Shown: piece by piece, positions 5,658 through 10,802 of the stretch
How the letters are laid out: each line of letters starts with the position of its first letter
Numbering within the stretch: the first letter of the stretch is position 1
NCBI RefSeq assembly: GCF_029962485.1
Contig: NZ_CP073637.1
Location: 868,001 to 932,000, forward strand
Direction: 5' to 3'
Length of the DNA stretch: 64,000 nucleotides
DNA from: Burkholderia cepacia
GTDB taxonomy: Bacteria; Pseudomonadota; Gammaproteobacteria; Burkholderiales; Burkholderiaceae
The notes under the pieces: model-generated
Databases searched by the model: none
What the model was told of the DNA's origin: nothing
Seen by the model: only the letters and a program-made list of their open reading frames with translations
Made by a program: the position numbers and the translations under genes

Positions 5658-6186
5658 CCGGCGGCGCGGCGGCGACTGCCGTCGTCGCGCGTCGCGTCAT
5701 GCGCGCCGATCGCGAGGCGGCATTCACAGTATTTCATTCTGCTATCCGGGTAATCGAAAATCACGCGACGCGGAAATGATCTGCGTAATCGACAAGAAAG
5801 ATAATCGCGGAATAAATAAAATCAGAAAATCCGCGATTTATCAATGCATTTTCATATTGATGAAATGCGTAATGGGAAGCCGGCCGTGACGGTATAGGGC
5901 ACCATCGCGACCGGGTGTTCCGGCGTTACGCGGAATGTACCGGAACACGTTACTACGGGGCTCGCAAACGTTACGTTACATCCGCGCTTCGTCGGCCTTT
6001 TTTCATCTGACAATTGATGCCGGTCAACCCTTCGTGACCCGCGAATTTCGTCTGAAATCGATTAAAAAAGCGTTATTGACCGCCAATGCGCAGACGAATC
6101 AATCCGTTTTTTTGAATTGGCACGCTTCGTGCAAACCGTCCCCATGCTTTGTCAACGTAGTGCCAACCGAGATGGGGAAAATAACG
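5658..6186. other. AT-rich intergenic region before the repeat protein
   Basis: No gene found in 529 bp. The stretch 5720-5870 is much richer in A and T than the surroundings. It includes an inverted repeat AATCGCGGA (5803-5811) / TCCGCGATT (5830-5838) with an 18-nt loop, which could be the end of the upstream operon or an operator. The long leader may carry the promoter of the repeat protein, but no clear -35/-10 pair stands out. The in-frame extension upstream of 6187 is AT-rich and lacks a signal peptide at its start, so I regard it as untranslated. Confidence 0.5.
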
Positions 6187-8814
6187 ATGGGACACAATCT
6201 TAAATTGACGGGTGTGGCGCTGTCGGTCGCGACGGTGTTCGGGGTACTGGCTTCGGGTTCCGCGGTCGCGGGCGTCCTCGATTCGCTGCCGATCCCGCAA
6301 GTGATCGTCAACCCGCCGACGAACAGCGTGTCGGTCGGGCTGGTCGCCACGGGCACGTCGCCGCTGGGTTCGGTCACCGTGGCGGCGGGCGGGTCGGGTG
6401 CGATCCAGACCTCGCTCGGCGATCCGGGACAAGTGCTGTCGGGTGCCGTGGGGGCGGTAACGGGCGCACTTGGTGGTGGCGGCGGCACGGTGCAGCCGCT
6501 CGCGCCGGTCCAGGGTGCATTGAACCAGGTGACGGGTGCGCTGAGTGGCGGCAACCCGGCAGGCGCGCTGACCGGTGCGCTGAATACGGCGACGGGGACG
6601 CTGAGCAATGCGGTTGGCACCGTAACGGGCGCATTGGGTAATGTCGGCGGTGGGTCGAACCCGCTGGCGCCGGTGCAGGGCGTGGTGAATCAGGTGACGG
6701 GGGCGCTTAGCGGCGGCAATCCGGCTGGTGCGCTGACCGGCGCGCTCGGCACGGTGACGGGTGCATTGGGCGGCATCGGCGGTGGGTCGAACCCGCTGGC
6801 GCCGGTGCAGGGCGTGGTGAATCAGGTGACGGGGGCGCTTGGCGGCGGCAATCCGGCTGGTGCGCTGACGGGCGCGCTGAACACTGCGACCGGTGCGCTG
6901 AGTAACGCGCTCGGCACTGCAACGGGCGCACTGGGCGGTATCGGTGGCGGCTCGAACCCGCTGGCTCCGGTGCAGGGCGTCGTGAACGGGCTCACGGGCT
7001 CGATCGGCGGCGGCGATCCGGCGGGCGCACTGACGGGTGTCGTCAACACGGTGACGGGTGCTCTGGGCAATCTCGGCAGCGGCTCGAACCCGTTGGCACC
7101 GGTACAAGGTGTCGTGAACGGTGTCGCGGGCGCCCTCGGTAGCGGCAATCCGGCTGGTGCTTTGACCGGCGCACTCGGCACGGTCACGGGTGCCCTGGGT
7201 GGCATCGGTGGCGGCTCGAATCCGCTGGCTCCGGTGCAAGGCGTCGTGAATCAAGTAACGGGCGCGCTGGGCGGCGGCAACCCGGCAGGTGCATTGACTG
7301 GCGCACTCGGCACGGTGACGGGTGCCCTGGGCGGCATCGGTGGCGGCTCGAATCCGCTGGCTCCGGTGCAAGGTGTAGTGAATCAAGTGACGGGCGCGCT
7401 CGGCGGCGGCAACCCGGCCGGCGCACTGACCGGCGCACTCGGCACGGTCACGGGTGCACTGGGCGGTATCGGTGGCGGCTCGAATCCGCTGGCTCCGGTG
7501 CAAGGTGTAGTGAATCAAGTGACGGGCGCGCTCGGCGGCGGCAACCCGGCCGGCGCACTGACCGGCGCACTCGGCACGGTCACGGGCGCCCTCGGCGGTA
7601 TCGGCGGCGGTTCGAACCCGATCACCCCGATCCAGAACATCGTCAACCAGGTGACGGGTACGCTCGGCAGCGGTAACCCGGCCGGCGCGCTGAGCAACAC
7701 GGTCAACACGATCACCGGCTCGCTCGGCAACCTCGGCGGCGCAGGGAGCCCGCTGGCGCCGGTGCAAGGCGTCGTTACGCAACTCGCAGGCACGCTCGGC
7801 AACGACAATCCGGCCGGCGCGCTGACGAACGCGCTGAACTCGGTGACGGGTGCGCTCAGCGGCGCAAATCCCCTGGCGCCGGTCCAAGGCGTCGTGAACC
7901 AGGTCGTCGGCACGCTGTCGGGTGCAGGCGGCGGCAGCCCGATCGCGCCGATCACGAACCTCGTCAACGGCCTGCAGAACGCGCTGCCGGGCGGCAATCC
8001 GGCCGGTGCGCTGACCGGCGCACTCGGTTCGGTAACGGGCGCTCTCGGCAATCTCGGCGGCTCGAACCCGCTGGCGCCGGTGCAAGGTGTCGTCAACCAG
8101 GTCGTCGGCACGCTCGGCGGCAGCAACCCGGCCGGTGCGCTGAGCAACGCGGTCAGCTCGGTGACGGGTGCCCTCGGCAACCTCGGCGGCACGAACCCGC
8201 TGGCGCCGGTGCAGGGTGTCGTCAACCAGGTCGTCGGCACGCTCGGCAGCGGCAATCCGGCCGGTGCACTGACGGGCGCGCTGAACTCGGTGACGGGCGC
8301 CCTCGGCAACCTCGGCGGCTCGAACCCGCTGGCGCCGGTGCAAGGCGTCGTGAACCAGGTCGTCGGCGCGCTGTCGGGTGCTGCGGGCAACAGCCCGATC
8401 GCGCCGATCACGAACCTCGTGAACGGCCTGACGGGCGGCGGCAACCCGGCCGGCGCACTGACCGGTGCACTCGGTTCGGTGACGGGCGCACTCGCGAACG
8501 GTCCGGCAGCCCTCGGCCAGGCGGCCGGTGCGCTGTCGGGCGCGGCCGGTTCGACGGCAGCGGCAGGCGGCAGCCTGCTCGGCTCGGGCGCGAACGCGGC
8601 CGGCGGCACGGCCGGTGCAGTCGGCTCGTTGCTGACGACGGGTGCCAACTCGACGACGACGGTCGTCAATGCGGTCGGCACGTCGGTGGGTACGGCGCTT
8701 GGCTCCGCGCCGGGCCTGTCGGTGACGCCGCATTCCGGCAACAGCTCGCCGAACAACCCGCTCGCACCGGTGACGTCGCTGCTCCAGTCGCTGACCGGCG
8801 CACTGCCGAAGTAA
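6187..8814 (+). CDS. Secreted glycine/alanine-rich protein of ~14 tandem 44-residue repeats, function unknown
   Basis: An 875-residue protein. ATG 6187 was chosen because GGGGA lies 8 nt upstream and a signal peptide follows (MGHNLKLTGVALSVATVFG...AVAG). After a short unique head there are about 14 repeats of roughly 44 residues, consensus NPLAPVQGVVNQVTGALGGG, then NPAGALTGALGTVTGALGGI, then GGGS; a few copies are longer (NTATGALSNALG insert) or carry a second SPIAPITNLVNGL module. The C-terminus ends NPLAPVTSLLQSLTGALPK. In the mature part I see only four Asp, one Lys, one His, and no Arg, Glu, Cys or aromatic residue. It is not a collagen G-X-Y repeat, although similar Burkholderia proteins get that label. 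No LPXTG, lipobox or autotransporter barrel is visible. A surface, matrix or envelope structural role is only a guess. Confidence 0.85.
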   Translation: MGHNLKLTGVALSVATVFGVLASGSAVAGVLDSLPIPQVIVNPPTNSVSVGLVATGTSPLGSVTVAAGGSGAIQTSLGDPGQVLSGAVGAVTGALGGGGGTVQPLAPVQGALNQVTGALSGGNPAGALTGALNTATGTLSNAVGTVTGALGNVGGGSNPLAPVQGVVNQVTGALSGGNPAGALTGALGTVTGALGGIGGGSNPLAPVQGVVNQVTGALGGGNPAGALTGALNTATGALSNALGTATGALGGIGGGSNPLAPVQGVVNGLTGSIGGGDPAGALTGVVNTVTGALGNLGSGSNPLAPVQGVVNGVAGALGSGNPAGALTGALGTVTGALGGIGGGSNPLAPVQGVVNQVTGALGGGNPAGALTGALGTVTGALGGIGGGSNPLAPVQGVVNQVTGALGGGNPAGALTGALGTVTGALGGIGGGSNPLAPVQGVVNQVTGALGGGNPAGALTGALGTVTGALGGIGGGSNPITPIQNIVNQVTGTLGSGNPAGALSNTVNTITGSLGNLGGAGSPLAPVQGVVTQLAGTLGNDNPAGALTNALNSVTGALSGANPLAPVQGVVNQVVGTLSGAGGGSPIAPITNLVNGLQNALPGGNPAGALTGALGSVTGALGNLGGSNPLAPVQGVVNQVVGTLGGSNPAGALSNAVSSVTGALGNLGGTNPLAPVQGVVNQVVGTLGSGNPAGALTGALNSVTGALGNLGGSNPLAPVQGVVNQVVGALSGAAGNSPIAPITNLVNGLTGGGNPAGALTGALGSVTGALANGPAALGQAAGALSGAAGSTAAAGGSLLGSGANAAGGTAGAVGSLLTTGANSTTTVVNAVGTSVGTALGSAPGLSVTPHSGNSSPNNPLAPVTSLLQSLTGALPK
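7219..7614 (+). repeat. Three near-identical 132-bp tandem repeats inside the repeat protein gene
   Basis: Units begin at 7219, 7351 and 7483, exactly 132 bp apart, and encode three identical 44-residue repeats; the next, diverged unit begins at 7615. DNA identity between the second and third copies is nearly complete, while outer copies differ at many third positions. This looks like recent duplication inside an older repeat array and predicts copy-number differences between strains. Confidence 0.9.
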
Positions 8815-8883: not shown

Positions 8884-8920
8884 ACGCGGCATGACAGCGA
8901 TGTCATGCCGCGTTGTCTTT
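8884..8920 (+). terminator. Rho-independent terminator after the repeat protein
   Basis: Perfect 12-bp stem (ACGCGGCATGAC, loop AGCGAT, then GTCATGCCGCGT, 8884-8913) followed by TGTCTTT. It lies 70 bp after the stop codon. The rest of the 8815-9114 gap holds no gene. Confidence 0.85.
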
Positions 8921-9114: not shown

Positions 9115-9474
9115 ATGAAACGGATGCTCTTTGCTGCCGCGCTGACCGCGGCGATCGTGCGGCCGGCGGCCGCGGAACCGCCTCAGGTCGGCGATGGGAA
9201 ACTGGTCGACGAGGCGCACATGACGCTGTACGTGTTCGATCGCGATGCGCCCGGCAAGAGCGCGTGCGACAGTGCGTGCGCGGCCAACTGGCCGCCCGCG
9301 ATCGCGGATGCGTACGACAAGGCATCGGGTGCACTGAGCCTCGTCGCGCGCGACGACGGCAAGAAGCAATGGGCATACCGCGGCCGCCCGCTGTACCGCT
9401 GGAAGATGGACCGCAAGGCCGGCGACGCGGGCGGCGACGGGATCGGCGGCATGTGGCACGTCGCGCGCCCGTGA
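9115..9474 (+). CDS. Small exported COG4315-type protein
   Basis: A 119-residue protein with AAGGAGAA 6 nt before the ATG. A signal peptide (MKRMLFAAALTAAIVRPAAA) precedes the family motifs LYVFDRDAPGKSACDSACAANWPP and WAYRGRPLYRWKMD, the two secreted repeats typical of COG4315 (lipoprotein_15 family). The function of the family is unknown; members often sit beside ECF sigma factors. Here it is the first gene of such a cassette, 33 bp before the sigma factor. No lipobox cysteine is present, so it is probably soluble in the periplasm. The two Cys in SACDSACA could form a disulfide. Confidence 0.85.
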   Translation: MKRMLFAAALTAAIVRPAAAEPPQVGDGKLVDEAHMTLYVFDRDAPGKSACDSACAANWPPAIADAYDKASGALSLVARDDGKKQWAYRGRPLYRWKMDRKAGDAGGDGIGGMWHVARP

Positions 9475-9507
9475 CCGTGCGGCGACGCTGACGCGCAAGG
9501 CTTCCTG

Positions 9508-10023
9508 ATGAGCTACGAATCGGATCTGCTGGTGTGGCTGCCGCATCTCGCGCGCTATGCGCGTGCGCTGACGGGCGACCGCGCGTGGGCGGACGATCTC
9601 GTACAGGACACGCTCGAGCGTGCGCTGAACCGGCCGCCGCGCGATGGCGGCAACCTGCGCGCGTGGCTGCTGACGCTGTTGCGGCACCGTTTCATCGACC
9701 AGTTGCGCGCGCGGCATGAAATCGCGGTCGACGACGCGACCGCACCGTGGCAGACGATGGCCGCGCCGGCCGGCGAGATCGGCGGGCTGGTGCTGCGCGA
9801 CGTGCAGCGCGCGCTGTACCGGCTGCCGGTCGAACAGCGCGAGGTGCTGCTGCTGGTCGCGCTTGAAGAGTTGAGCTATCGCGATGCCGCGCAGGTGCTC
9901 GGCGTACCGGTGGGTACTGTGATGTCGCGACTCGCGCGGGCGCGCGCGCAGATGCGCGCACTGCTGTCGGACGAGCCGTCGCCGCACGGCACGGCCACGT
10001 TACGGGTGATCGGGAAACCATGA
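9508..10023 (+). CDS. ECF (sigma-70 family, group 4) RNA polymerase sigma factor
   Basis: A 171-residue protein. Sigma region 2 is seen at the N-terminus (YARALTGDRAWADDLVQDTLERAL, then RAWLLTLLRHRFIDQLR) and region 4 near the C-terminus (LPVEQREVLLLVALEELSYRDAAQVLGVPVGTVMSRLARAR). It directs RNA polymerase to a small regulon, probably including its own operon. The stop overlaps the ATG of the next gene (ATGA at 10020), a membrane anti-sigma factor, so the pair is translationally coupled. The inducing signal is unknown. Confidence 0.93.
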   Translation: MSYESDLLVWLPHLARYARALTGDRAWADDLVQDTLERALNRPPRDGGNLRAWLLTLLRHRFIDQLRARHEIAVDDATAPWQTMAAPAGEIGGLVLRDVQRALYRLPVEQREVLLLVALEELSYRDAAQVLGVPVGTVMSRLARARAQMRALLSDEPSPHGTATLRVIGKP

Positions 10024-10802
10024 TGGACGATCCGCACAAGCTTTCGAACGAGCGGGACGACGATGCGTCGGCGCAACTGCTGTCCGCGTTGCTGGACGGC
10101 GAGCTGTCCGGGCATGAGCAGCGCGAGATGCTCGAGCGTCTGCAGTCCGATCCGGAGGAAGCCGAACGATTCGCGCATTACCGCGCGCAGCGCGACGCAC
10201 TGAAAGCGTTGTTCCCGCTGCCGGGCGCGGCGCCCGCGCTGTTCGTGCAGCGTCGCGCGCCACGCCGTCGAGCATTCTCGTACGCATTCGCGGGGCTGGC
10301 GGCCGGGCTGCTGATCGGCGTGGCGCTGCATGCGGGCTGGCTGGCATTCGGCCGCGACCCGGCGTTCGCCGCGCGTGCCGATGTCGCGTATGCCGTGTAC
10401 GCAGCCGATCGCGACCATCCGGTCGAGGTCGGCGCGGGCGATCCCGTGCATCTCGCCGCGTGGTTGTCGGCGCGCATCGGGCGCCCCGTGCGCGCCCCGT
10501 CGCTCGACGAATACGGTTACGTGCTGCTGGGTGGCCGGTTGCTCCCCGGCGACGGCGGGCCGGCCGCGCAGTTCATGTACCAGCGCGCGGACGGCGCCCG
10601 TGTGACGCTGTACATGACCGCCTACGATGCGCGGCATCTCGCCCCGCAGTCGATGTCGGCCGACGGCCGCTACACGTATTTCTGGTCGGATCGCGGCATG
10701 GGCTATGCGTTGTCCGGCCGCGGCGACGAACGGCGCCTGCGCGAGCTCGCGATCGAGGCGTGCGGCGCGCTCGGCGGCTCGACCGACGCGTGGAAGGGCT
10801 GA
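10020..10802 (+). CDS. Membrane-bound anti-sigma factor
   Basis: A 260-residue protein whose ATG overlaps the sigma factor stop. The N-terminus (DDASAQLLSALLDGELSGHEQREMLERLQSD) resembles the cytoplasmic sigma-binding helices of anti-sigma factors. One membrane segment follows at about residues 87-108 (AFAGLAAGLLIGVALHAGWLAF). The C-terminal half, beginning PAFAARADVAYAVYAAD, should be periplasmic and contains the motif EYGYVLLGGRLLPG, common in this anti-sigma family. It would hold the sigma factor at the inner membrane until a periplasmic signal is sensed. No HxxxCxxC zinc motif is seen. Confidence 0.85.
   Translation: MMDDPHKLSNERDDDASAQLLSALLDGELSGHEQREMLERLQSDPEEAERFAHYRAQRDALKALFPLPGAAPALFVQRRAPRRRAFSYAFAGLAAGLLIGVALHAGWLAFGRDPAFAARADVAYAVYAADRDHPVEVGAGDPVHLAAWLSARIGRPVRAPSLDEYGYVLLGGRLLPGDGGPAAQFMYQRADGARVTLYMTAYDARHLAPQSMSADGRYTYFWSDRGMGYALSGRGDERRLRELAIEACGALGGSTDAWKG

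Follow-up and report, generated by a model that had tools for sequence, protein, structure and literature searches.

The closest described relatives of the protein analysed here are the 'Bcc collagen-like' lipoproteins of Burkholderia, typified by BCAL1523 and BCAL1524 and carrying the Collagen_mid domain (PF15984). According to the passages of the published reports cited here, the genes BCAL1524-BCAL1523-BCAL1522-BCAL1520 of B. cenocepacia J2315 lie beside Flp genes, and BCAL1522 is described as an outer-membrane 'heme utilization-related' protein (PMC10224339). Deletion mutants of BCAL1524, a protein found in outer-membrane vesicles, autoaggregate less (residual optical density 17.7% vs 11.9%) and are less virulent towards wax-moth larvae (PMC10303873). 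Contact with host-membrane vesicles induces BCAL1523 and BCAL1524 (PMC7970998), while several genes of the BCAL1524-1520 and 1525-1537 operons are down in cepR mutants (PMC2753556). Here we examine a stretch of 64,000 nucleotides from Burkholderia cepacia (NZ_CP073637.1, positions 868,001 to 932,000; the window), in which one gene encodes a large repetitive product that we call the uncharged protein.

Like the BCAL1523/BCAL1524 type, the uncharged protein has a near-uncharged composition and helix periodicity, C-terminal PLAPVxGLVxxVTGALGG repeats, a PLAPVT unit with a basic end, and a sigma-54-type site, which in that type stands before the first gene. The lipobox, the (GTS)n or similar stretch, the Collagen_mid domain of about 200 residues and the adjoining ShlB gene belong to the BCAL1523/BCAL1524 type alone; the uncharged protein differs further in having a cleavable-type signal peptide, an N-terminal domain of its own and a single-gene locus elsewhere in the genome. 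Our preferred reading, to which we assign a probability of about one half, is that its gene is controlled by sigma-54 and that, once exported, it acts as a self-associating helical matrix protein in aggregation or biofilm formation.

More distant systems offer partial parallels. Aquincola PepA, a secreted PEP-CTERM protein, is RpoN1-dependent with a TGGCAC -24 element and is required for flocculation (PMC9850573), and it shows, for a Burkholderiales-type bacterium, that an extracellular aggregation protein can be under sigma-54 control. The uncharged protein is unlike PepA in that no PEP-CTERM sorting-domain match appeared at E values up to 10 in Pfam or NCBIfam, and no such C-terminal motif or membrane helix is apparent by eye. 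Biofilm formation in B. cenocepacia is under RpoN control via berA (PMC5552954). Perilipin-4 forms a long repetitive amphipathic helix with almost no aromatic residues, rich in Thr, Gly and Val and only weakly amphipathic (PMC5889406). The uncharged protein may be compared with it, with no claim of homology, in its tandem amphipathic-helix repeats, few aromatics and Thr/Gly/Val richness, whereas perilipin-4 is eukaryotic, cytosolic and built of 33-mers with balanced charges; 11-mer repeat proteins such as alpha-synuclein are grouped with it as analogues. Bacterial collagen-like (G-X-Y) proteins, which are surface or secreted proteins, are likewise Gly-rich and repetitive, but their G-X-Y periodicity is missing from the uncharged protein.

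Composition, selection and helix periodicity

The open reading frame at 6187-8814 is a real gene. A longer in-frame reading frame opens at 5935, and an in-frame ATG also occurs at 6172; both longer starts are ruled out by stops in orthologs, several of which, in the upstream alignment, carry one in this frame after position 6172 and ahead of the MGxN start. These stops, together with protein-level conservation that sets in at MG(H/Q/K/N)N, support the start at 6187. Residues 30-875 (846 in all) contain four Asp, one Lys and one His and no Arg, Glu, Cys, Phe, Tyr, Trp or Met, and are dominated by Gly (207), Ala (120), Leu (101), Val (93), Thr (79) and Asn (72); the sole Lys of the mature protein is its final residue. 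Charged residues thus occupy 5 of 846 positions (0.6%), compared with a minimum of 9.9% and a median of 22% in 43 probable genes of the window, a set obtained with a codon-position filter that left out the uncharged-protein gene itself. An earlier note on this DNA had described a reading frame nearly free of charged and aromatic residues, which agrees with this start and composition, although it was silent on Met. It had also proposed export, and the signal peptide MGHNLKLTGVALSVATVFGVLASGSAVA, as read from the sequence, bears this out.

The unusual composition is maintained among 22 orthologs. Asp, Glu, Lys and Arg together number 4-7 in 21 of them and 36 in the 1931-residue protein of locus L049 (loci are numbered L). 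All 22 are free of Cys from residue 29 onward, as is the signal peptide of the uncharged protein itself, and after the signal peptide aromatic residues are absent from 17 and number one to three in the other five. Compared in pairs, the 44-residue repeat copies starting at residues 345, 389 and 433 show 11, 14 and 5 synonymous changes and no difference in protein. Median pairwise dN/dS (nonsynonymous over synonymous rates) was 0.22 for the N-terminal domain (codons 30-98) and 0.31 for the last 140 codons, in each case from 231 non-independent pairs of the 22 orthologs. These values, together with the synonymous-only differences between repeats, uphold the strong selection that the composition had been taken to imply.

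Sixteen repeat starts of the form (N/S/Q)P(L/I)(A/T)P(V/I) precede the final C-terminal one, at successive spacings of 55, 44, 55, 44 (six times), 40, 23, 43, 43, 43 and 23 residues. About 14 copies of 44 residues, as first counted, is therefore a fair tally, but the basic unit is closer to 22 residues, with 29 helix starts of N/S/D/Q-P spaced by 20-24 residues, except for two that are 35 apart. We interpret each of these units as a short, predicted amphipathic helix that opens with Asn-Pro and carries a stripe of Leu and Val. The mean hydrophobic moment at 100 degrees lies 17.7 standard deviations (SD) above composition shuffles, and 8.9-36.9 SD above them in 35 of 35 family proteins examined, although these values are inflated because shuffling breaks up the repeats, which tells against taking them at face value. 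The weight rests instead on the sign of the moments and on the contrast between alpha and beta periodicity: the 170-degree moment falls below shuffles in all 35 family proteins (-4.6 SD for the uncharged protein). Four control proteins from neighbouring genes gave -1.8 to 1.3 SD. For single helices, the observed moment was reached by 12, 1 and 0 of 20000 shuffles, and the best helix angle was 104 degrees, near that of a heptad coil. Among the 47 prolines of residues 103-755, 46 stand directly after Asn, Ser, Asp, Thr or Gln or three residues past such a Pro; by the helix-cap rule, such prolines fall within the first turn of the presumed helix.

A silk-like protein, one of the roles suggested in the earlier note, is rejected in its beta sense: alpha periodicity is enriched and beta periodicity depleted, the longest (GA)n stretch is 2 residues and the longest poly-Ala 3. 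The statement that the repeat is not G-X-Y collagen was right, the longest run being 4 triplets against a shuffle mean of 4.5 and a shuffle maximum of 7. An RTX protein was rejected as well (the GGxGxD nonapeptide is absent), and Pfam gave no match to the N-terminal TPS (haemagglutination activity) domain of two-partner secretion exoproteins (TpsA).

Promoter, leader and relatives of the locus

A sigma-54-type site is present at the gene (Table 1); from the motif, its transcription may depend on sigma-54, and the position of the -12 element would place the start near 6144. The form TGGCACG-N4-GTGCA agrees with 10-11 of 12 consensus positions in every one of the 23 orthologs examined, always 64-69 nt ahead of the start codon, and matches of the same quality lie 64-73 nt upstream in the relatives L063, L064, L072, L065, L077 and L078. 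A lone site of this kind is weak, since matches of at least 10/12 were found within 300 nt in 230 of 20000 shuffles and 500 of 20000 random genomic windows (drawn from the fetched loci, real sites included); what carries the argument is the fixed position in orthologs and the recurrence in distant relatives. A 12/12 site precedes the first Collagen_mid gene both in the B. cepacia source genome and in L070, and further sites occur at two L073 genes (11/12) and one L079 gene (10/12). No noteworthy site was seen at the second genes of the L076 and L070 pairs or at either L074 gene.

Of the 65 genomes in the genus, 37 contain the site-plus-leader pattern, each a single time and directly before the N-domain match, and none of the 65 contains its reversed control; the exact pattern was unmatched in nine N-domain-bearing genomes. 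As the pattern was derived from these same sequences, what counts is only that it is unique and that the control was clean. A sigma-70 scan returned 0 sites against 0.3 expected and is uninformative. The terminator scan yielded 2 sites, 2.3 being expected in shuffles, and stem length alone favours the 8884-8913 hairpin; given this hairpin and its T-rich tail downstream, the gene is probably transcribed alone. The leader part CCAACCGA..TGAGG recurs in the distant paralogs L067-L069, L077 and L078, and a related leader, CCAACCGAAATGAGG, was found in L067 and L068. Within the highly conserved leader, at 6143-6178, an inverted CCCCAT...ATGGGG could pair across the ribosome-binding region.

Table 1. 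Features of the uncharged-protein gene, in window coordinates
Feature	Position	Strand	Remarks
Sigma-54-type promoter TGGCACG-CTTC-GTGCA, -24/-12, GG and GC correctly spaced	6118..6133	+	11/12 consensus positions
Leader and ribosome-binding region (GTCCCCATGCTT..TCAACGTAGTGCCAACCGAGATGGGG)	6134..6186	+	Mean column identity 91%, 10 orthologs aligned
Coding gene, 875 residues, uncharged protein with predicted helix repeats	6187..8814	+	
Signal peptide, residues 1-28	6187..6270	+	From sequence; kept in orthologs; probable cleavage after AVA
N-terminal domain, residues 29-102, unique, conserved	6271..6492	+	12 orthologs 69-97% identical across first 110 residues
Repeat region, residues 103-773: predicted helix-turn units of about 22 residues, mainly paired into 44/43-residue units	6493..8505	+	
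Ala/Gly/Ser/Thr-rich segment, residues 774-856	8506..8754	+	From sequence
C-terminal unit NPLAPVTSLLQSLTGALPK, residues 857-875, last residue Lys	8755..8811	+	
Intrinsic-terminator-like hairpin, 13 pairs, loop 4, T-rich tail	8884..8913	+	

Within the genus, a whole-protein match of some kind was obtained in 61 of 65 genomes and the N-terminal domain in 46 of 65; all 25 named loci retrieved by N-terminal alignment are from Burkholderia. Family-wide, where up to 3 candidates per genome were scored and Collagen_mid-type proteins were included, the repeat matched in 78 of 299 genomes from 6 of 25 genera. As to the occurrence of the repeat outside Burkholderia, a check proposed in the earlier note, 37 of these 78 genomes belong to other genera of the family. 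Order-wide, 3 of 300 genomes matched at E 1e-6, two of them Burkholderia. L063, L064 and L072, from another genus of the family, are relatives with a signal peptide that share the C-terminal unit and have repeat spacings of 23 or 20 residues. The C-terminal residue is K or R in 23 of 23 orthologs listed and in 8 of 9 further relatives, the ninth (L065) running off its contig. The flanking genes of both sides are kept at 21 of 23 ortholog loci (the remnant described below included); in the fetched stretches, L039 is without the downstream and L050 without the upstream neighbours.

The neighbouring region 9115-10802 holds a gene for a secreted Lipoprotein_15 repeat protein (by Pfam) followed by ECF-type sigma-like and anti-sigma-like genes, named from their sequence, and this group adjoins the uncharged-protein gene in most ortholog loci. 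L052 (genome G010) is a 5'-deleted ortholog remnant with the same neighbours, no N-terminal domain and no match to the promoter pattern. L067, L068 and L069 encode further near-uncharged paralogs of 1174-2151 residues with 36-38% Gly.

Collagen_mid paralogs and a candidate export partner

The same genome carries, at L076 (contig C1, about 1.632-1.637 Mb), two adjacent Collagen_mid lipoprotein genes of 609 and 494 residues, with Pfam matches of 2.4e-67 for the 609-residue paralog and 1.1e-63 for the other, and lipoboxes ..SACGG and ..AACGG. The repeats of the 609-residue paralog are 60% identical to residues 321-538 of the uncharged protein, and its longest uninterrupted G-X-Y run is 15 triplets. 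An ShlB/FhaC-type gene (POTRA_2 9.1e-21, ShlB 1.2e-17) adjoins the pair (L076:5919-11037), and a DUF2147 gene and Tad-type genes lie alongside, in the same order as reported for J2315 (PMC10224339). A Collagen_mid-type gene lies beside an ShlB gene also in L073 and in Cupriavidus metallidurans L108, Pfam having been run there on the ShlB genes only. By gene order, this pairing suggests a two-partner-type export of the 'Bcc collagen-like' proteins.

Since it has no Collagen_mid domain, lipobox or GTS repeats, the uncharged protein is a repeat relative and not a member of the Collagen_mid family. Of the match to a characterised family that, by the earlier note, would refute its reading, half was seen: the repeat of the uncharged protein matches the Collagen_mid lipoproteins, but their Pfam domain, lipobox and (GTS)n stretch are absent from it. 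Pfam gave no match above cut-off (best YfdX, E 0.2), NCBIfam at best RiPP TigB (15.5 bits against a cut-off of 70), and solved structures E 0.14 or worse. PHROGs returned weak low-complexity matches (best phrog_788, 2.3e-05), no single stretch passing alone, and Rfam one sub-threshold match within the gene. In the literature searched (subscription papers lay outside its scope), we found neither the repeat strings NPLAPV and PLAPVTG, nor expression data for the gene, nor a link of the family to RpoN or two-partner secretion; as far as we searched, reading the family in these regulatory (sigma-54, ShlB) and structural terms is new.

Weighing a matrix protein against its alternatives

From these results we infer how the protein may fold, assemble, leave the cell and act outside it. 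Sigma-54 would transcribe a single-gene unit whose product is Sec-exported and becomes an extracellular chain of about 29 short amphipathic alpha-helices. Each unit of about 22 residues would consist of an Asn-Pro (or Ser/Asp-Pro) cap, a heptad-like Leu/Val stripe and Gly-rich turns at the end, the polar face being formed by uncharged Gly, Thr, Asn, Gln and Ser. Absent charge repulsion, the helices should pack against one another and onto hydrophobic surfaces, for which reason a sticky extracellular matrix or coat serving aggregation or biofilm formation appears most likely. Crossing of the outer membrane may use the ShlB/FhaC-type transporter encoded next to the Collagen_mid paralogs; each of the 65 genomes in the genus has a relative of it, so that export in trans would be possible. 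A surface or matrix role of the kind put forward in the earlier note is plausible, except in its beta-silk sense, because the repeat is common to the BCAL1524-type lipoproteins and BCAL1524 promotes autoaggregation; by analogy, the function would be a close extension of the BCAL1524 role.

Several observations weigh against this picture. With composition correction, the match to the 609-residue paralog drops to 36% identity over 433 residues (E 4e-6), and a protein database search, in which the best 8000 candidates were scored, gave 7 weak matches to Acinetobacter 'beta strand repeat-containing' proteins at about 30% identity; that search is of limited value because low-complexity candidates swamped it. 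A search of the protein database with the N-terminus gave no matches, which is uninformative because 25 loci exist in genome contigs. The long paralogs L067, L068 and L069 are without a good sigma-54 site, and sigma-54 dependence was not found in the literature searched, the main text of the NtrC regulon paper containing neither BCAL1523/1524 nor 'collagen'. For export, an ShlB gene that is universal in the genus makes co-occurrence prove nothing, and 15 of the 65 rows behind that count show one stop inside the match, the query including residues before the probable start. Inspection of the closest flanking genes, both here and in L063, L064 and L072, brought up no recognisable ShlB gene; among all of these neighbours, Pfam covered window positions 9115-9474. 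Finally, the biased regions of Collagen_mid relatives are predicted to be intrinsically disordered in the published account (PMC10224339); helices forming upon assembly would fit both this prediction and the helix periodicity.

The main rival is an interface coat akin to perilipin-4, unfolded in solution and helical at oil, lipid, air or hydrophobic solid, which would serve wetting, emulsifying or anti-fouling and not the gluing of cells. Length, repeats, near-absent aromatics, Thr/Gly/Val content and weak amphipathicity fit perilipin-4 point by point (PMC5889406), and the repeat spacings of 55 and 44 differ by 11 residues. We nevertheless hold this reading to be possible but unlikely: the balanced charges of perilipin-4 matter for its targeting (PMC5889406), while the uncharged protein has almost none; the best angle of 104 degrees is closer to a heptad coil than to the 98 degrees of an 11-residue helix; and Pro/Gly boundaries cut the chain into helices of about 16-19 residues instead of one long helix.

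The matrix reading also has to be set against a disordered, length-variable spacer or decoy, that is, a flexible brush separating the surface or matrix, or presenting the conserved N- and C-terminal parts. Ortholog lengths from 615 to 1931 residues, and 721 against 875 residues in a strain of the same species (L082, a draft assembly), are what such a brush might show, as is the low-complexity Gly/Ala/Ser/Thr content, alongside the published disorder of the Collagen_mid relatives (PMC10224339). A spacer would have no need of a Leu/Val stripe, helix caps or strict purifying selection on each repeat, and we consider it improbable. Least probable is an adhesin of the 'Bcc collagen-like' class that would act in host contact by binding a ligand of the host, a reading which could draw on the repeats in common with the Collagen_mid lipoproteins, on their induction upon host-membrane contact (PMC7970998) and on the adhesin role proposed for them (PMC10224339), but which meets a protein with neither Collagen_mid domain nor lipobox and, in an uncharged repeat, what would be an unusual ligand-binding surface.

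Beyond the single gene, the uncharged and Collagen_mid proteins might form one superfamily unrelated to collagen: extracellular, near-charge-free alpha-helical polymers, switched on as a set by sigma-54 and at least partly exported by a dedicated two-partner-type transporter, which coat interfaces and glue cells much as perilipin-4 acts on oil. We put this forward tentatively, as a speculative extension that is itself unlikely. If true, it would describe a class of bacterial extracellular material so far undescribed. Should the preferred reading of the uncharged protein be right, its repeat would be a simple natural charge-free self-associating helix of use in materials work. The nearest relatives of the uncharged protein so far carry the label collagen-like, and the gene is present in many Burkholderia; that label would then mislead for a large group of Burkholderia surface proteins, whose repeats would resemble uncharged amphipathic helices and not triple helices. 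The shared sigma-54 switch and ShlB-type exporter would, in that case, be simple handles on Burkholderia aggregation.

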